From positions 1-34,730 of the forward strand of contig JAHEDT010000032.1 in NCBI GenBank assembly GCA_024641085.1: a DNA stretch of 34,730 bases, given 5' to 3'. Each line of letters begins with the position of its first letter. Within the stretch, counting starts at the first letter, position 1. The notes beneath the pieces are model-generated. The model was given only the letters and a program-made list of their open reading frames with translations. It did no database searches and was not told the DNA's origin. This document shows, in pieces, positions 13,667 to 22,610 of the stretch. This DNA is from Geobacteraceae bacterium. Its GTDB lineage: Bacteria; Desulfobacterota; Desulfuromonadia; Desulfuromonadales; BM103. The position numbers were made by a program, and so were the translations under genes.

Positions 13667-13796
13667 TATTAGCGATGGCTAAGAATTGGCCGCATTTACG
13701 ACCAGGGACGGCACCCGGAGCGCACAGTAAATTCAACCCGTGTCATCGTATCGTTAAGTCAACGGTACGGCAGTGCTCCCTCATTTGAGCGATGTG

Positions 13797-16145
13797 ATGA
13801 AAAAGCGGACCATTTCGCAATACATATTCAAACCCTGGTATACAGCGTTCGTCATCAGCGTGATCTATGCGGTTGTCGGTGGGATGTGGGTGTTTTTCTC
13901 CGAACCGGTTTTGGCGCAATGGATCGACGAGCCAGACAACTTACGCAATTCCAAGATTGTCAGCCAATGGCTGTTTATCGTCATCTCGGCCCAACTGCTC
14001 TTCCTGCTGATCCGTCACCGGGAAGTCGCGTTCAGCCGCAATGAAGAGTCCCTCTACCGGGTCAACCGGGCCCTGCGGGTGTTCAGCGAGTGCAAGAAGG
14101 CCATCACCTGGGACATGGATGAATTCGAACTGCTGCGGAAGATCTGTCGCATTCTGGTGGCCCTGGGCGGGTATCGTCTGGCCTGGGTCGCTTATGCGTC
14201 GCATGATATCGACAAGAGCGTCAAGCCGGTGGCCTACTGGGGGAACGATGAAGGTTACCTGCATTCACTGAAAGTGACCTGGGACGAGTCCATCTACGGG
14301 CAGGGCCCGGCCGGGACGACTATCCGTACCGGCCAGACCGTGATCGTGCAGGATATCATGTCCAATCCAAACTTCAAGCCGTGGCGTGAGGAGGCCCTCA
14401 ACCACGGCTTTGCATCGGCAATCTCCCTGCCGCTGCACAACACCAGCAAGATTTACGGCGCCCTGGTAATCCTCGCAGCAGAAGCTGATTCATTCGATCT
14501 GGAAGAAGCCAGCCAATTGGAGGAACTCGCCGACGATCTGGCCAATCGAATCCGGACGCTTCACAGCGAAGCCGCCCAAAAGAAGGTCAAGGAGGAACAA
14601 CTGCTGCTGGCCAAGGTGATCCACCAGGCCGCGGAGGGGGTGCTGACTTTCGACCAGGACGCCCGTGTCCAATATCTCAATCCTGCCTGGGAGGTCATTT
14701 GCGGGGTCAATGCCAAGGATGTCTTCAACAACAGCCTGCACGAACTGGCGTGCTGCCGTCGCAACGAGCAGTTCTACGAGGCCATCAGGCAGGTTATCGA
14801 AACCGGCGATGTGAGCACCGGCCAATATCTGAATGTGCGCGAGGATGGCTCCCGGTACCGGATCGAGGCCAATATTTCACCGGTCATGGCAGAATATTCC
14901 GACGTCATCCGCTACGTTGCCGTGATCCGGGATGTGACTTACGAAAGCCAGTTGGAAGATCAGCTGCGCACCGCCCAGAAGATGGAGGCCATCGCGACGC
15001 TCGCCGGCGGGATCGCCCATGATTTCAATAACATCCTGGCGGCCATCCTGACCAATACCGAGCTGGTCCTTGACGATCTGCCCAAGGATGGCCTGCTGCG
15101 TGAACATCTGGAAATCGTTTACCAGGCCGGTGCCCGTGGCAAAAGTTTGGTCAAGCAGATCGTGACCATCAGCCGGCAGAACGTTCAGGAGCGCAAGCCG
15201 GTGTGTGTTGCGTTTATCGTCGACGAATGTCTCAACCTGCTGCGCGCCACCCTGCCGACCACCATTGAGTTCCGCAAGGACATCGCCCCGAACCTGGATC
15301 CGGTTTCGGCTGACCCGACCCAGCTGCACCAGGTCATCCTCAATATCTGCACCAATGCGGCTGATGCCATGGAAGAGCAGGGCGGAATCCTCGAGATCCG
15401 GCTGGAGGAAGTGACGGTCGCGTCCCGCTACGACGACATCCATGCCAGCCTGCACCCGGGGAGTTACCTGAAGCTCTCGATCAAGGATACCGGTCACGGC
15501 ATGGAACGGGACGTCCTGGAACGGGTATTCGACCCGTTTTTTACCACCAAGGGGCTTGGCAAGGGGACCGGCCTGGGCTTGTCGGTAGCCCACAGCATCA
15601 TCAAGAACCACGGTGGTCTCCTCAACGTGGAGAGTATCCCCGGCAAAGGGACCGAATTCCATATCTACCTGCCGAAAATTTACTGCATTGAACAACAGTC
15701 CGCAGCTAATGACAGCCTGATGGTCGCCAACGGGCACGAGCGGATCCTGTTCGTCGATGACGAGCCGGCCCTGGCCTTTGCCGGGCAGAAGATGCTTGAG
15801 AAACTCGGCTACGAGGTGGTTAGCGGCACCGATAGCCGTGAGGCCCTGCAGTTGTTTCTGGAGCAGCCGGCAAGCTTCGACCTGGTGATCACCGATCAGA
15901 CCATGCCGCATATGACCGGAGAAATGCTGGCCCGGGAGATGCTCAAGGTGCGGGAAGAACTGCCGATCATCCTCTGCTCGGGGAACGTACTGAACGACAG
16001 CTCCGGGGTCTCCATGGCGAAGGCCCGGGCGATCGGTATCCGTGAGTTCATGAACAAGCCTTATGAACGCAGCGAGATGAGTCAGCTGATCCGCCGGACA
16101 CTCGACAACCGGCCAGTGGATGGTGCGTCATGGCGACAATCCTGA
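13797..16145 (+). CDS. Membrane hybrid sensor histidine kinase (GAF, PAS, HisKA, HATPase, REC)
   Basis: 782 residues from ATG 13797 (MKKRTISQYIFKP); GTG 13773 is an alternative. Two membrane helices lie at about 14-35 and 56-76, enclosing a short periplasmic loop of about 20 residues. Then come GAF (about 100-250), PAS (about 270-390), HisKA with the phospho-acceptor His408 in GGIAHDFNNIL, HATPase with the N-box (NICTNAADAM), DTGHGM and GTGLGL, and a C-terminal receiver (about 645-775) with acceptor Asp700 in VITDQTMP and the conserved Lys in NKPYE. All catalytic motifs look intact. Such a small periplasmic loop suggests sensing inside the cell or membrane (GAF/PAS). The last 16 nt overlap the next gene, so the cognate regulator is almost certainly the product of 16130. 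The C-terminal receiver may act as a phosphate sink. Confidence 0.92.
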   Translation: MKKRTISQYIFKPWYTAFVISVIYAVVGGMWVFFSEPVLAQWIDEPDNLRNSKIVSQWLFIVISAQLLFLLIRHREVAFSRNEESLYRVNRALRVFSECKKAITWDMDEFELLRKICRILVALGGYRLAWVAYASHDIDKSVKPVAYWGNDEGYLHSLKVTWDESIYGQGPAGTTIRTGQTVIVQDIMSNPNFKPWREEALNHGFASAISLPLHNTSKIYGALVILAAEADSFDLEEASQLEELADDLANRIRTLHSEAAQKKVKEEQLLLAKVIHQAAEGVLTFDQDARVQYLNPAWEVICGVNAKDVFNNSLHELACCRRNEQFYEAIRQVIETGDVSTGQYLNVREDGSRYRIEANISPVMAEYSDVIRYVAVIRDVTYESQLEDQLRTAQKMEAIATLAGGIAHDFNNILAAILTNTELVLDDLPKDGLLREHLEIVYQAGARGKSLVKQIVTISRQNVQERKPVCVAFIVDECLNLLRATLPTTIEFRKDIAPNLDPVSADPTQLHQVILNICTNAADAMEEQGGILEIRLEEVTVASRYDDIHASLHPGSYLKLSIKDTGHGMERDVLERVFDPFFTTKGLGKGTGLGLSVAHSIIKNHGGLLNVESIPGKGTEFHIYLPKIYCIEQQSAANDSLMVANGHERILFVDDEPALAFAGQKMLEKLGYEVVSGTDSREALQLFLEQPASFDLVITDQTMPHMTGEMLAREMLKVREELPIILCSGNVLNDSSGVSMAKARAIGIREFMNKPYERSEMSQLIRRTLDNRPVDGASWRQS

Positions 16146-17548
16146 TTATCGACGATGACGACCTGATGTGCGCCACCCTGGCCAACCTGGTGCAGCACAG
16201 CGGTCATCAAGCCACCTGCGCCACGTCGCTGCATGCCGGGCAGAAGCAGGCGGAAACACGCCTGTTCGACGTGGTCTTTCTGGATGTGCACCTGCCGGAC
16301 GGCAACGGCCTCGATCTGCTGCCCAGGCTCGAAGCGCTCTCGTCGGCCCCTGAGGTGATCATCATCACCGGGTTCGGTGAGCCGAGCGGCGCGGAGCTTG
16401 CCATCAAGAGCGGCGCCTGGGACTACATCGAGAAGAGTTCATCGGTCAAGGAGATCTGTCTCGCCCTGGAACGGGCTCTGCAGTATCGTCATGAAAAGCA
16501 GGCTGTCGGCAGGCAGAACCAGGTCGCGGTGCTCAAACGCGGCAACATCGTCGGCGAGAGCCATAAACTGCAGACCTGCCTCGATCTGGTCGCCCAGGCG
16601 GCCGGCAGCGATGTCAACGTCTTCATCTTCGGCGAGACCGGCACCGGCAAGGAGCTGTTTGCCCGGGCCGTCCACGAGAACAGCCAGCGCACCCGCGGCA
16701 ATTTTGTCGTCGTCGACTGTACGGCCCTGCCGGAAACCCTGGTCGAGAGCCTGCTCTTCGGTCACGAGAAAGGCGCCTTCACCGGTGCCGAAAGGGCCCG
16801 CGACGGTCTGGTGCGCCAGGCGCACTGCGGAACGCTGTTCCTCGACGAAGTGGGGGAGTTGCCCTTCACCCTGCAGAAGGCCTTTCTGCGGGTGCTGCAG
16901 GAGCGCCGCTTCCGGCCGCTCGGCGGTAGCCATGAAGTCGCAAGCGACTTTCGGCTGGTCGCGGCCACCAACCGCAACCTCGAGCAGATGGTCCAGTCGG
17001 GCCAGTTTCGCGAGGACCTCCTGTTCCGCCTGCGTTCGTACGTCATCGAACTGCCGCCCCTGCGCGAACGGCCCGAGGACCTGCAGGTGTTGACCCGCCA
17101 CTATGCAGATCGCCTCTGTACCCGTTACGGCCTGCCGCCCAAGGGTTTCTCGCCTGACTTTATCGACACCCTGCGGGCTTACCCCTGGCCGGGCAACGTG
17201 CGTGAATTCATCCATACCATGGAACAGACGCTGGCCGTGGCCCGCCATGAACCGACCCTGTTCCCAAAACACCTGCCCACCGGCATCCGCGTTCAGGTCA
17301 CCCGCGCGGCGGTTGACCATGACCATAATCATGACCTGGCGACCGATCTCCGTCAGCAGGTCGCTCACAACCTGCCGAAATTGCATGACTATCGTGACAC
17401 GGTTTATCATGAAGCCGAGAAGAACTACCTGCACGATCTCCTGGCCCTGGCCGAGGGGGAGATCGCCGGAGCCTGCCGGCTCTCCGGCCTGTCCCAGTCC
17501 CGCCTGTATGCCCTGATGAAAAAACACGACGTCTCCCGCGACCGCTGA
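16130..17548 (+). CDS. NtrC-type sigma54-dependent response regulator
   Basis: 472 residues overlapping the kinase gene by 16 nt. The receiver (1-120) has DDDD at 8-11 and acceptor Asp52 in VVFLDVHLPDG. The AAA+ domain (about 138-370) has Walker A GETGTGKE, an intact sigma54-contacting loop GAFTGA at 215-220, Walker B GTLFLDEVGEL and the arginine-finger region FREDLLFRL. The C-terminus has a Fis-like helix-turn-helix (ACRLSGLSQSRLYALMKKH). It should activate sigma54 promoters after phosphorylation by the upstream kinase. A His/Asp-rich linker (VDHDHNHDLATD) before the DNA-binding domain is unusual. Its likely targets are the two promoters at 17698 and 19164. The helix-turn-helix is nearly identical to that of the 17768 product. 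Confidence 0.93.
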   Translation: MATILIIDDDDLMCATLANLVQHSGHQATCATSLHAGQKQAETRLFDVVFLDVHLPDGNGLDLLPRLEALSSAPEVIIITGFGEPSGAELAIKSGAWDYIEKSSSVKEICLALERALQYRHEKQAVGRQNQVAVLKRGNIVGESHKLQTCLDLVAQAAGSDVNVFIFGETGTGKELFARAVHENSQRTRGNFVVVDCTALPETLVESLLFGHEKGAFTGAERARDGLVRQAHCGTLFLDEVGELPFTLQKAFLRVLQERRFRPLGGSHEVASDFRLVAATNRNLEQMVQSGQFREDLLFRLRSYVIELPPLRERPEDLQVLTRHYADRLCTRYGLPPKGFSPDFIDTLRAYPWPGNVREFIHTMEQTLAVARHEPTLFPKHLPTGIRVQVTRAAVDHDHNHDLATDLRQQVAHNLPKLHDYRDTVYHEAEKNYLHDLLALAEGEIAGACRLSGLSQSRLYALMKKHDVSRDR

Positions 17549-17574: not shown

Positions 17575-17613
17575 TTCCTGCGCTGCGAGAGGACAATTCC
17601 TGTGCGACAGGAA
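17575..17613 (+). promoter_or_regulatory. Enhancer-type operator sites upstream of second activator gene
   Basis: TTCCTGTGCGACAGGAA at 17597-17613 is a perfect palindrome of the form TTCCTG-N5-CAGGAA. A weaker copy (TTCCTG-N5-CGAGAG, 9 of 12) begins 22 bp upstream at 17575. They lie about 100 bp before the sigma54 promoter, the usual place for activator binding. The perfect form recurs at 19063. Confidence 0.7.
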
Positions 17614-17767: not shown

Positions 17768-19000
17768 ATGGATCCAGAACTTTCCAAGCGTGCACCCCTT
17801 CCGACCCCATCGGGCCCGCCCTCCGCTAAGTTGGTCGATGTCGTTGAAGAGGGTGGGCGGCTGTATGTCACAGTGGAGCTTCCGGGAGTCAGCGCCGGTG
17901 AGATCGACATCCGCATCTCGGACAGCCTGCTCGACATCTGCGCCGAGCGCGAGTCGCTGGCCGCGTGGCTGTCCCACAACGAAGATCATCATACGGGCGT
18001 GATCGTCGGCTGCAGTCGGCCGCTCACGGACACCCTGAGGATGCTCTATGAGGCGGCCGCGAGCGATGCCAACGTGCTGCTCTGCGGCGAAACCGGCACG
18101 GGCAAGGAACTGTTCGCCCGGGCCCTGCATGAAAAGAGTGCCCGGGCACGCGGTAGCTTCGTGGCAGTCGACTGCACGGTCCTGCCGGAAACGCTGGCCG
18201 ACAGCCTGTTGTTCGGACACGAAAAGAACTTTTTTGCCGGGGCCGACATAACCTGTGCGGGGCTGATCCGCCAGGCCCGCTGCGGAACCCTGTTCCTCGA
18301 CGAAGTCGGCGAGCTATCGCCGACCCTGCAGAAGGCCTTTCTGAGGGTCCTGCAGGAACGGCGCTTCCGGCCGACCGATGGCCACGCTGAAGTCGACAGC
18401 GATTTCCGGCTGGTCGCAGCGACCAACCGCGACCTGCAGCGCAGCGTCGCCCGCGGTCACTTCCGCGAGGACCTGCTGTACCGCCTGCAGTCCTGCCGGA
18501 TCGAACTGCCGGCCCTGCGCCGCCGTACCGATGACATCCCACCCCTGACCGACTACCATGTGGAGCGGCTGTGCCGCAGGTACGGGTTCCCCGCCAAACA
18601 GATGACCCCTGAATTCATCAGGACCCTGGTGCTCTACCCCTGGCCTGGAAATGTCCGCGAACTGATCAGCTCCCTGGAGCAGGCTGTGTTGGCGGCACCA
18701 CTGGAGGAGACCCTGTTCCCCAAGCACCTGCCGCAGCATATCCGCATCCAGGTCGCCAGGTCGGCCCTCGAATCTCGTCGTGGCGGCGGTTCCGGAACGC
18801 CGACCGGCGCACCCGCCGCCGGCTGCTGGCCCCGCCTGCACGATTTGCGCAGCCGGGTCTTCGACCTGGCTGAAAAGCAGTACCTCGCCGGCCTCGTGCA
18901 GCTTACCGGGCCGGACGTCAGCCAGGGTTGCCGGTTGTCAGGGCTGTCACGCTCTCGCCTCTATACGTTGCTGAAAAAACATCGCATCACCCTGCATTGA
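17768..19000 (+). CDS. Sigma54-activator paralogue with Hsp20-like N-terminus and changed GAFTGA loop
   Basis: 410 residues, no receiver domain. Residues ~22-61 (VDVVEEGGRLYVTVELPG then EIDIRISDSLLDICAE) look like the first half of an Hsp20/alpha-crystallin domain, close to the short HSP20-like module. The AAA+ domain (about 75-310) keeps Walker A GETGTGKE, Walker B GTLFLDEVGEL and FREDLLYRL. The sigma54-contact loop is NFFAGA (154-159) in place of GAFTGA, so the key Thr is Ala. The C-terminal helix-turn-helix (GCRLSGLSRSRLYTLLKKH) is nearly identical to that of the 16130 product, so both should bind the same operator. ATPase activity is expected; sigma54 activation is doubtful. It may work as a mixed oligomer with, or brake on, the 16130 regulator. 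The ribosome site is weak. Confidence 0.88.
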   Translation: MDPELSKRAPLPTPSGPPSAKLVDVVEEGGRLYVTVELPGVSAGEIDIRISDSLLDICAERESLAAWLSHNEDHHTGVIVGCSRPLTDTLRMLYEAAASDANVLLCGETGTGKELFARALHEKSARARGSFVAVDCTVLPETLADSLLFGHEKNFFAGADITCAGLIRQARCGTLFLDEVGELSPTLQKAFLRVLQERRFRPTDGHAEVDSDFRLVAATNRDLQRSVARGHFREDLLYRLQSCRIELPALRRRTDDIPPLTDYHVERLCRRYGFPAKQMTPEFIRTLVLYPWPGNVRELISSLEQAVLAAPLEETLFPKHLPQHIRIQVARSALESRRGGGSGTPTGAPAAGCWPRLHDLRSRVFDLAEKQYLAGLVQLTGPDVSQGCRLSGLSRSRLYTLLKKHRITLH

Positions 19001-19023: not shown

Positions 19024-19079
19024 TTCCTCTTCGACGGTAATCTTCCTGTCCGGCAGGACAGTTTCCTGCCAAACAGGAA
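19024..19079 (+). promoter_or_regulatory. Tandem enhancer-type operator sites upstream of the cytochrome operon
   Basis: Three copies of the TTCCTG-N5-CAGGAA palindrome spaced 19-20 bp apart: 19024-19040 (TTCCTC..CGGTAA, 9 of 12), 19043-19059 (TTCCTG..CAGGAC, 11 of 12) and 19063-19079 (TTCCTGCCAAACAGGAA, perfect). They sit on one face of the helix about 85-140 bp before the sigma54 promoter at 19164. Confidence 0.72.
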
Positions 19080-19163: not shown

Positions 19164-19179
19164 TGGTATGGCGGTTGCT
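19164..19179 (+). promoter_or_regulatory. Sigma54 (-24/-12) promoter for the cytochrome operon
   Basis: TGGTATGGCGGTTGCT has exact GG-to-GC spacing and a perfect TTGCT -12 element, with two mismatches in the -24 element. The start is expected near 19191, about 30 nt before the ATG at 19222. Upstream tandem palindromes support activator control. Confidence 0.72.
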
Positions 19180-20199: not shown

Positions 20200-20275
20200 G
20201 GCGGCCCTGGCATAGGTGAAGAATGCGCAGTGATGACCGCGGAATGTTTGTTGAAAATCTGGAAGGGTGAATCAA

Positions 20276-21331
20276 ATGAAAACAGAAATAGTACACAAAA
20301 TCATGATATTGGGATTACAAATCTCATTGTATACCTTAATACCATTGCTGGCTGTCGCCACGGAAAACAGCGCCTGTCTGGAATGTCACGGCGATGCCGC
20401 CGCGGTCGGTGAGTCGTTGGTGATCGAGGCGTTGAGTTTTGACAATACGGCGCATGGCGAGCTCGGCTGCCACATCTGCCACGCTTCGATCAGCGACGGA
20501 CACCCGGATGACGGACTGACGCCTTCACGGACCAGCTGCGTCGAGTGCCACGATCCGATCAGCCAGGAATATGCCGCCAGCCTGCACGCCGGCAAGGCCA
20601 GTTGCAGCGACTGCCATACCCCTCACCGGGCTCTTGGCCCGACCGCGGTCTCCGGGCACGATATGAACCGGCAGTGCCTGACCTGCCATGATCATGCCGA
20701 CATGCTGGATAAACACGGCGAGTGGCTGCCCCAGGCTGACCTGCACGTCAGCATGCTGCCCTGCATTACCTGTCACTCTTCATCCGACCAGTACGTCATC
20801 AGTCTGTACATCATCAAGCGCCACGGCAACATGCTCTCAGGTGGCTACGAACTCGCTTCCTTTGATGAGCTGAGCGTCCAGTCCAATGGCCGGCCGATCG
20901 AGCAGCTGGTCGACCGCAACGCGGATGGCTACGTCTCGCTGGCCGAGTTGCGCATGTTCAACCTCGACCCGGAGAACAAGCAGCTGCGCCTGCAGGGGAT
21001 GATCACACCGGAAGGGGTCAGCCACAACTTCCGGACCCAGGATGACCGCTGGGACTGCTCCTTTTGCCACGCGTCCGGCCCGGCCGCCAGGCAGGTGAGC
21101 TTCCTGTCTCTGGCAGAGCCGGACGGCAGTTACAAGCGGGTTCCGGTCGAGAAGGGCGCCGTGCTCGATGCTCTCTATGGTACGCCGGATTTTTACATGG
21201 TCGGTTCCACCCGTAGTACCGCTCTCAACTACGTGGGCCTGGTGATTCTTGCCGGCGGCCTGGTCATGCCGATCGGCCACGGAACTCTGCGGATTCTGAC
21301 CCGTAAAAACCGCACGAAAGAGGAGGAATAG
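20276..21331 (+). CDS. cbcA: Seven-haem c-type cytochrome, membrane-anchored (CbcA-like)
   Basis: 351 residues from ATG 20276 (GGAAGGG 8 nt upstream). The N-terminal hydrophobic segment (about 9-28) should be a signal. Seven CxxCH motifs are present: CLECH, CHICH, CVECH, CSDCH, CLTCH, CITCH and, well apart, CSFCH. Between haems six and seven an EF-hand-like loop (DRNADGYVSLAE) occurs. A C-terminal membrane helix (about 314-336) anchors it facing the periplasm. Seven haems next to a di-haem cytochrome b fits the Geobacter CbcBA menaquinol oxidoreductase used at low potential; that identification is from memory and not aligned. It should pass electrons from quinol to periplasmic c cytochromes. 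The first ~25 codons are notably AT-rich. Confidence 0.85.
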   Translation: MKTEIVHKIMILGLQISLYTLIPLLAVATENSACLECHGDAAAVGESLVIEALSFDNTAHGELGCHICHASISDGHPDDGLTPSRTSCVECHDPISQEYAASLHAGKASCSDCHTPHRALGPTAVSGHDMNRQCLTCHDHADMLDKHGEWLPQADLHVSMLPCITCHSSSDQYVISLYIIKRHGNMLSGGYELASFDELSVQSNGRPIEQLVDRNADGYVSLAELRMFNLDPENKQLRLQGMITPEGVSHNFRTQDDRWDCSFCHASGPAARQVSFLSLAEPDGSYKRVPVEKGAVLDALYGTPDFYMVGSTRSTALNYVGLVILAGGLVMPIGHGTLRILTRKNRTKEEE

Positions 21332-21333
21332 CC

Positions 21334-22053
21334 ATGTCAAAGATCAAGATCTACCTGCAGCCGACCCCGATCCGCATCTGGCACTGGCTGAATGCCTTCG
21401 GGATCATCACCCTGTGCATCACCGGCGTGCAGATCCGCTTCCCCGATCATCTCCACCTGTTTGCCAGCTACAAGTCGGCGATCCTGCTGCACAACGTGGC
21501 CGGCCTGGTGGTGGCCTTCTCATTCTCGCTCTGGTTCATCTACTACGCTGTGGTCAGCCGCACCCTGCTCAAAACCTATATGCCGAGCAGGGACGACCTG
21601 GAGCACGGTCTGGCCCGCCAGGCCAAGTTCTACCTGTTGACCTATTTCCTGGGCTGGAAGAACCCCCACCATGCGACGCCGGACAACAAGTTCAATCCGA
21701 TGCAGAAGTCGGCATACCTGGCGATCATGTTCATCCTGGTGCCGCTGGTCAGCCTGAGCGGGCTGCTGCTGACCAACGTCAGCCCGATGCGCGACCTGGT
21801 GTTGATGATCGGTGGCCTGAAGATCCTGGTCGCCATCCATTTCCTGCTGGCCTGCTGCCTGTGTGCATTCCTCTTCACCCACGTGTACCTCGCCACGCTC
21901 GGCAAGACGCCGCTGGAGCATATCAAGCCGATGTGGACCGGCTGGGAAGAGGAAGACAGCACGGAGCAACCACACCACGTGACCGGATCGTCGCGTTTGC
22001 CGAGCGTGGCCGCTATGCCGCGAACCGGCATGACGACAAGGAGGAGACCATGA
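21334..22053 (+). CDS. cbcB: Di-haem cytochrome b, quinol-oxidising subunit (CbcB-like)
   Basis: 239 residues, 2 nt after the c cytochrome, GAGGAGGAA ribosome site. Four membrane helices: about 14-34, 48-74, 128-150 and 165-188. His candidates for two b haems are in RIWHWLN, ILLHNVAG, AIHFLLA and FTHVYLA. This is the b561/hydrogenase-type cytochrome b family (PF01292-like). The family takes electrons from menaquinol in the inner membrane and passes them to its partner c cytochrome. The C-terminal ~40 residues are hydrophilic and low in conserved features. The stop overlaps the next start (ATGA at 22050). Confidence 0.85.
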   Translation: MSKIKIYLQPTPIRIWHWLNAFGIITLCITGVQIRFPDHLHLFASYKSAILLHNVAGLVVAFSFSLWFIYYAVVSRTLLKTYMPSRDDLEHGLARQAKFYLLTYFLGWKNPHHATPDNKFNPMQKSAYLAIMFILVPLVSLSGLLLTNVSPMRDLVLMIGGLKILVAIHFLLACCLCAFLFTHVYLATLGKTPLEHIKPMWTGWEEEDSTEQPHHVTGSSRLPSVAAMPRTGMTTRRRP

Positions 22054-22610
22054 CATACCGCAGCCAGATGATCGATAAAAGCTCCCGCAGGAATGATCGA
22101 AAAGTGTCCCGGTCGACGACGGTCGCCGTGAAGAAGGCCTGGTTTGACGATCAAAATGACGAGGTGCAGAGTACGGGGCCGCGACTGACCAATGCGGAAC
22201 TGCACGCCTTGTCACGTAAGGGGCTCTGGGGGTTGTTGTTTTTCCTGCTCGCCAGCGTCGCGGCGTGCATGGCCCAGGACTTCAACCTCTACCGGACCTT
22301 TCCCGAGCCGGTCCTCGAGATTCTTGGCTGCCCGCCGCCAGCCACCCTGATTCACCTGACCCTGATCGGCTACAGCGTGACCGTGATCATCCCGGTGCTG
22401 ATCCGTATGGCTACGGGGGTCATCCCGGTGGTCGGTTGGCACCATCTGGCCTGCCGCTCGGTCTTCTACCTCTTTTACCTTGTCTCGACCACCTTGCCGC
22501 AGAATTTCCTGGCCGTGATCATCATCGGCAGTCTCCTCTACCTTGTCGAGCAGTTGGCGGTTTGGACCTACCTGTACCGCAACCTGCATGGCTCCGAGGC
22601 TACCAGTTAG
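22050..22610 (+). CDS. Membrane protein of the cytochrome operon, unknown function
   Basis: 186 residues, ATG 22050 overlapping the cytochrome b stop, with AAGGAGGAG upstream. Open reading runs on in frame to 21414, but that part is a shadow of the cytochrome b gene. Residues 1-55 are charged and soluble. Hydrophobic segments follow at about 58-76, 97-123, 130-150 and 152-175. The WHHLACRSVFY stretch has two adjacent His that could bind a haem or metal. I do not recognise the family. Coupling to the cytochrome b gene suggests a subunit or assembly factor of the same complex. Confidence 0.78.
   Translation: MTYRSQMIDKSSRRNDRKVSRSTTVAVKKAWFDDQNDEVQSTGPRLTNAELHALSRKGLWGLLFFLLASVAACMAQDFNLYRTFPEPVLEILGCPPPATLIHLTLIGYSVTVIIPVLIRMATGVIPVVGWHHLACRSVFYLFYLVSTTLPQNFLAVIIIGSLLYLVEQLAVWTYLYRNLHGSEATS

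Follow-up and report, generated by a model that had tools for sequence, protein, structure and literature searches.

A sigma54-activator paralogue with an Hsp20-like N-terminus and an altered L1 loop beside the presumed activator of a CbcBA-like cytochrome cluster

Paralogous pairs of bEBPs are already known, as are bEBPs without GAFTGA; interactions between bEBP homologues are described as rarely reported (PMC9542535), and the pairs treated in the papers cited here are presented there as activating. One of these pairs comprises FleQ and FleT of Rhodobacter (Cereibacter) sphaeroides, where the first sigma54 activator induces the second and the complex of both acts, FleT being described without an N-terminal receiver (PMC7277832, PMC9542535). 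Another comprises VnfA1 and VnfA3 of Azotobacter vinelandii, reported as paralogous activators that act on the same promoters, VnfA3 being induced by VnfA1; hetero-oligomers were demonstrated for them, and the effect of the pair can be negative at one promoter (PMC9542535). HrpR and HrpS of Pseudomonas syringae are described as two paralogous bEBPs without an N-terminal regulatory domain, forming a hetero-hexamer (PMC7057263). Natural bEBPs without a working sigma54 loop are represented by the GAFTGA-less NtrC proteins of Caulobacter and Rhodobacter, in the account given by PMC10274813. This report deals with P2, a bEBP paralogue encoded beside an NtrC-type response regulator, RR.

P2 and the cytochrome cluster

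The window (the whole 34,730-nucleotide stretch of DNA analysed) contains, in this order, the genes for a hybrid kinase, RR, P2, the small protein TM1, a pseudo-receiver, a second small protein TM2, a heptahaem cytochrome c and a cytochrome b561-type protein (Table 1). RR is presumed to be the activator of the cytochrome cluster. An RR match at E<=1e-150 was identified in 75 of 277 genomes of the class and the RR-cytochrome arrangement in most of the clusters opened; to judge by these, the arrangement is old. The cytochrome pair resembles CbcBA of G. sulfurreducens (GSU0593/0594), also described as a heptahaem cytochrome c with a b561-type subunit (PMC7726332, PMC12307469, PMC10553843). There CbcA is given as heptahaem and CbcB as PF01292 (PMC7726332), and the complex as used near -0.2 V (PMC12307469); in the window a cytochrome c with 7 CxxCH lies beside a PF01292 cytochrome b, an agreement by description of the G. 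sulfurreducens proteins.

Table 1. Features of the P2 locus, with window coordinates
Feature	Coordinates	Strand	Remarks
Hybrid histidine kinase, GAF-PAS-HisKA-HATPase-REC	13773..16145	+	overlaps RR start
RR, NtrC-type response regulator with GAFTGA	16130..17548	+	PF00072 E=2.5e-21, PF00158 E=1.2e-64
Operator dyad TTCCTGTGCGACAGGAA before P2	17597..17613	.	
Sigma54-type promoter TGGCACGGCTCCTGCT before P2	17698..17713	+	C for first T of TTGC
P2, paralogue of the adjacent RR	17768..19000	+	410 aa; Hsp20-half N-terminus, AAA+, HTH
Hsp20/alpha-crystallin half domain of P2, residues 23-62, VDVVEEGGRLYVTVELPGVSAGEIDIRISDSLLDICAERE	17834..17953	+	sub-threshold Pfam HSP20
AAA+ sigma54-activator domain of P2, residues 79-245	18002..18502	+	PF00158 E=1.4e-54
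P2 L1 loop NFFAGA in place of G[AS]FTGA, residues 154-159	18227..18244	+	
P2 HTH recognition segment CRLSGLSRSRLYTLLKKH, residues 388-405	18929..18982	+	15/18 identical to RR
Two tandem operator dyads before the TM1-cytochrome gene group	19043..19079	.	
Sigma54-type promoter TGGTATGGCGGTTGCT before TM1	19164..19179	+	
TM1, small hydrophobic protein, 74 aa	19222..19446	+	syntenic homologues; no Pfam match
Stand-alone pseudo-receiver without phospho-accepting Asp, 152 aa	19454..19912	+	
TM2, small hydrophobic protein, 82 aa	19953..20199	+	syntenic homologues
CbcA-like multihaem cytochrome c, seven CxxCH	20267..21331	+	
CbcB-like cytochrome b	21334..22053	+	PF01292 E=2.4e-28

The initial annotation placed the P2 reading frame correctly and its reading of the motifs holds: the frame was found and the AAA+ motifs are intact, namely Walker A (GETGTGKE), Walker B (GTLFLDEVGEL), sensor I (AATNRDL), the R-finger segment (FREDLLYRL) and sensor II (WPGNVREL); a lid is also matched (Pfam PF25601, E=1.6e-17). 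Among bEBP features P2 has the AAA+ domain with Walker A and B, both sensors and the R-finger, and lacks a GAFTGA-type L1 loop with its Thr. The loop is altered as annotated: NFFAGA differs from GAFTGA at positions 1, 2 and 4, the Thr among them, and keeps the Phe. A C-terminal Fis-type HTH is present, judged by the recognition segment. Its annotated near-identity to the HTH of RR stands for that segment and fails for the last 48 residues, which are 48% identical. Pfam HTH_8 gave no match in P2 and only E=0.14 in RR; among the NCBIfam matches listed, no family was above its cut-off for P2, RR, the kinase or the cytochrome c, and NCBIfam gave none for the two small proteins.

In the 3.5-Mb genome only two places carry the exact dyad TTCCTGY-N3-RCAGGAA, one at 17597 ahead of P2 and one at 19063 ahead of TM1, both upstream of sigma54-type promoters; with one mismatch there are 11 sites genome-wide against 3 for the reversed control. 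The proposed action of P2 and RR on the same operators is supported by this restriction of the exact dyad to the P2 gene and the cytochrome operon, together with recognition segments differing at only 3 of 18 residues. Across genomes, with patterns devised after viewing the sequences and shuffles using identical patterns, a sigma54-type promoter was identified upstream of P2 in 23/25 (shuffle mean 0.00) and a dyad in 20/25 (0.75), G113 being left out; downstream of P2 the counts were 20/23 (0.05) and 23/23 (0.65), leaving out G102, G082 and G084. Within the window, the sigma54 pattern matched 4 times for 1.78 expected, with as many in 10 of 100 shuffles, which is not significant. At the first T of TTGC, 23/23 P2 promoters have C, A or G, and 18/20 of the promoters downstream of P2 have T; this difference suggests that the P2 promoter is the weaker.

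Other members of the cluster deserve mention. Most of the cbc clusters opened contain the pseudo-receiver gene, whether or not P2 is present, and the protein has Gly or Ala at the phospho-Asp position; its homologues match Response_reg (1.7e-9, 2e-8 and 2.2e-9), and the window copy matched no receiver model. Directly after the cytochrome b gene, at 22053-22610, lies a conserved gene without a Pfam match, syntenic in most clusters. Rearranged cbc clusters with two pseudo-receiver copies and an ORFx-like gene between them were seen at L121 (G075) and L125 (G083). The regulator in G. sulfurreducens is named BccR; an open-access literature search for CbcBA together with BccR found nothing.

N-terminus, distribution and divergence of P2 relatives

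Comparison with RR shows that P2 has lost the receiver and that a predicted half Hsp20 fold stands there instead. The N-terminus alone matches Pfam HSP20 over positions 2-40 of 102 with 15.7 bits against a threshold of 20.8 (E=0.016), and the whole of P2 with E=0.14; a complete alpha-crystallin domain above the HSP20 score cut-off is absent from P2. The G006 orthologue reaches E=3.8e-4 with ArsA_HSP20 and E=2.1e-3 with HSP20, and among 18 chosen P2 N-termini HSP20 matches 9 and ArsA_HSP20 8 at E<=1. A profile of these 18 run against PDB returned small heat-shock proteins as its top 24 (one labelled only 'putative uncharacterized protein ST1653'), with a best E of 5.5e-6 that is flattered because the 18 were selected by eye out of 25. 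On these comparisons the Hsp20 match of P2 is genuine despite its sub-threshold score. P2 shares with HSP20 and ArsA_HSP20 domains the first ~40-45 residues including the LPG motif, but lacks the rest of the domain and stays below the curated score cut-offs. The Hsp20-like N-terminus of the initial annotation is thereby upheld as a match, by G006 and the PDB profile, and reduced to a half domain that is sub-threshold in P2 itself. The alternative of an ordinary Hsp20 fusion was discarded, since half of the domain is missing.

In 9 of 27 P2s, same-genus G001 included, the segment cannot be recognised or has been cut; G001 has lost part of the half and G043 has an eroded one, so the half is dispensable. 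Regional omega, from few and non-independent pairs, was 0.069 for the Hsp20 half, 0.074 for AAA+ and lid and 0.38 and 0.43 for the flanks in f1 P2s, the corresponding values in genus g40 being 0.164, 0.110, and 0.32 and 0.79. AlphaFold2 on P2 with 4 sequences (window, L039) gave a mean pLDDT of 41.4 and a pTM of 0.27. The Hsp20 half is probably a protein-protein docking or inter-subunit beta module and not a chaperone.

P2 with its AAA+ part was identified in 27 genomes from three families: six from f1, one from f3 and 20 from f8, including all 19 f8 genomes with an RR match. No P2 lies beside RR in 13 inspected clusters of f2, f9, f12, f14, f24 and f25. In a phylum-wide sample of 395 genomes, only the window's own match, among the matches listed, starts before P2 residue 53; eroded P2 forms were possibly missed there, because scoring was limited to four candidates per genome. 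A scan of genome contigs matched L039 and one distant activator, L040.

In a 60-row tree, 22 P2s form one clade (88/90) adjoining the RRs of f1, f2 and f8. Within it are sub-clades for f1/f3 (96/68) and f8 (99/97), in a branching order similar to that among the RRs; the outgroup is a single long one, the P2 branches are long and support for the P2 clade is moderate. The tree was built without the P2s of G007, G082, G084 and G102 and without G088 and G108; the P2s of G082, G084 and G102 end at contig ends, many of the genomes being apparently draft. P2 is most likely, from its sequence relationships, the product of one old duplication of the adjacent RR, and the simplest reading would be one duplication with later loss in f2. 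One placement stands apart: at L044 (G043), labelled f3, RR and P2 nest with the f1 genomes G012 and G004, either a cluster transfer or a labelling matter.

Among the seven f1/f3 P2s the loop is GSFTGA in five, GSFTSA in G010 and NFFAGA in the window; all seven retain an intact AAA+ core and R-finger. The initial annotation had held that GAFTGA in homologues at this site would count against its reading, and formally this is what is seen, with GSFTGA in 5 of the 6 close orthologues; NFFAGA is for this reason peculiar to the window's P2, a paralogue that evolves fast, and is not a trait conserved among P2s. The window differs from same-genus G001 (GSFTGA) by five transitions in three codons without an indel, and a local artefact of assembly or strain is unlikely. 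The f8 P2s lack the loop in 20 of 20; in 17 of the 19 readable they lack the R-finger pair (exceptions are G108, keeping one Arg, and G110, keeping both) and in 17 of 19 the HTH (kept in G110 and G108), and the Walker B Asp-Glu is altered in 13 of 20. G007 presents a 116-aa ORF with the HTH only, downstream of a P2-type promoter and dyad. From this distribution of loop and HTH, P2 appears to have lost its sigma54 contact at least three times (window, f8 stem, G007), the parent being unaffected: the RR loop G[ASTV]FTGA is kept in 37 of 38, the tally excluding G113 (frame broken) and G134, and the 38th being G111.

Two RR genes and one residue of the HTH are noted apart. At L128 (G111) the RR frame stops (TAA) exactly at the GAFTGA loop, by real nonsense or assembly error, and P2 there is very eroded; the RR match at L131 (G113) is spread over two overlapping frames, in the manner of a frameshift. 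The recognition-helix residue at 18953-18955 is Gln or Pro in the RR C-termini shown, Arg in the seven f1/f3 P2s and the G007 remnant, and Pro in G110 and G108, a possible tweak of affinity or specificity.

Frames are open and without internal stops at 25 P2 loci, contig-end truncations aside. P2 omega (NG86) lies between 0.08 and 0.30 in the 13 computable pairs of 16, and is higher than that of RR in 10 of 10 comparable pairs; dS is infinite in 3 of the 16 P2 pairs and in several RR pairs, and saturated for others. On these ratios, well below 1 even among the loop-less forms, purifying selection is acting on the P2 genes. At four of the 91 columns that are otherwise invariant, the window P2 alone differs, and two of these four fall in the loop. 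Its core lies no farther from the f1 relatives than the core of G001 does.

Possible roles of P2

RR and P2 qualify as adjacent or co-regulated paralogues by synteny, operators, promoters and tree, and would have operators and an AAA+ surface in common. The reading put forward here, at about even chances, is that in this genome P2 is an RR-induced, non-activating partner that damps or reshapes RR output. Phosphorylated RR would activate both P2 and the CbcBA-like operon, and P2 would presumably be made only while RR is active. P2 could then occupy the operators of RR, join RR in mixed AAA+ rings, or both; a subunit unable to grip sigma54 would leave fewer working loops per mixed ring, or the operator would be occupied, either of which would act as a brake. 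The damping would follow from P2 making no productive sigma54 engagement in this organism, GAFTGA mutants being reported as in most cases unable to activate (PMC7175178). Negative feedback on the low-potential cytochrome complex would be built in via P2. Only the ring route would be left in f8, and only the DNA route in G007.

The partner or anti-activator role proposed in the initial annotation gains from the relatives, which repeatedly lose the sigma54 loop, R-finger or HTH under purifying selection. Several observations count against a damping partner: five of the six nearest orthologues, with GSFTGA, could activate; P2 evolves faster than RR in all ten comparable pairs; the Hsp20 half is unrecognisable or cut in a third of the P2s (9/27); the sigma54 pattern of the window by itself is within chance; and the HTH-less f8 forms are unable to compete for DNA alone. 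More tentatively, the P2 lineage as a whole may consist of natural dominant-negative sigma54-activator subunits, induced by the parent, keeping ring or operator surfaces, devoid of the sigma54 grip, and docking on parent or kinase through half an alpha-crystallin sheet. If true, such a dominant-negative P2 would give a self-limiting switch for a respiratory complex near its energetic limit.

The main rival to P2 as a brake is co-activation, rather unlikely on balance, where P2 and RR form obligatory or tuning hetero-oligomers, the RR loops suffice and P2 adds assembly or signal input. Most f1/f3 P2s retain GSFTGA, listed in PMC4641369 as a variant that would retain activation, and have core and R-finger intact (7/7); precedents are FleQ, described as switching fleT on and then acting with FleT (PMC7277832), VnfA1, described as activating vnfA3, interacting with VnfA3 and binding the same promoters (PMC9542535), and HrpRS (PMC7057263). 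The f8 forms argue the other way, loop-less in 20/20 and mostly without R-finger and HTH, as do the inspected clusters of other families, 13 of 13 running without P2. The same losses of motifs and of the Hsp20 half, the omega above that of RR (10/10 comparable pairs) and the HTH-only remnant of G007 could also mark a decaying duplicate, in which selection was relaxed after duplication and NFFAGA is a step towards a pseudogene. This is improbable in view of the open, stop-free frames at the 25 loci (contig-end truncations aside), the omega well below 1 even in loop-less forms, the conserved promoters and operators, and an Hsp20 half constrained next to unconstrained linkers.

An ordinary sigma54 activator, whether NFFAGA is an artefact of assembly or strain or the loop works despite its change, would agree with GSFTGA in close orthologues, with the conserved loop Phe and with DVUA0100, whose GVATGV is predicted in PMC4641369 still to act; five clustered transitions without frameshift are atypical of error, the loop Thr is changed and the loop is gone altogether in the sister-family P2s, so that this explanation is quite improbable. 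Very doubtful is a sigma70-type regulator binding the dyads and acting on other polymerase forms, for which the GAFTGA-less NtrC of Caulobacter and Rhodobacter, reported at sigma70 promoters (PMC10274813), provide the example: the only two exact dyads are both upstream of sigma54-type promoters, and most f8 forms have no HTH. The chaperone-like sensor of the initial annotation, its Hsp20 segment sensing misfolding or binding clients, is scarcely credible; a first half of the alpha-crystallin domain is matched (~40-45 residues), but the second half is absent and 9 of the 27 P2s have the segment missing or eroded.

Comparison with described pairs and loop variants

The open-access literature searched yielded neither a paralogue of this kind, induced by its parent, repeatedly silenced and bearing half an Hsp20 domain at the N-terminus, nor anything relevant on an Hsp20-containing activator. 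If P2 as a partner does brake RR, it would be a feedback element for CbcBA-type electron transfer at very low potential. The silenced parent-induced subunit and its loop-, R-finger- and HTH-less sister forms would be a ready-made set of subunits for asking what number of working loops an AAA+ ring requires and by what means a rival subunit disables the ring.

P2 resembles FleT in the missing receiver and in its induction by a first activator, as proposed above; FleT is described as an activator partner, whereas in P2 the sigma54 loop is altered and the N-terminus is half an Hsp20 domain, with loop and HTH both absent from many P2 relatives. The VnfA paralogues, similar as paralogous activators of which one would induce the other, carry GAF domains, and the account of them in PMC9542535, as far as it covers the pair, makes no mention of sigma54-loop loss. 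HrpR and HrpS are likewise paralogues, but both are described as retaining all characteristic motifs and as mutually dependent (PMC7057263); here the parent RR keeps its receiver and the 13 inspected clusters outside f1, f3 and f8 have no P2 beside RR, a difference that also sets these CbcBA clusters apart from that of the window. Finally, the GAFTGA-less NtrC proteins share the lack of a working sigma54 loop, but are described as sole copies with the receiver kept, at sigma70 promoters (PMC10274813), whereas P2 adjoins an intact parent and lies at sigma54-type promoters.
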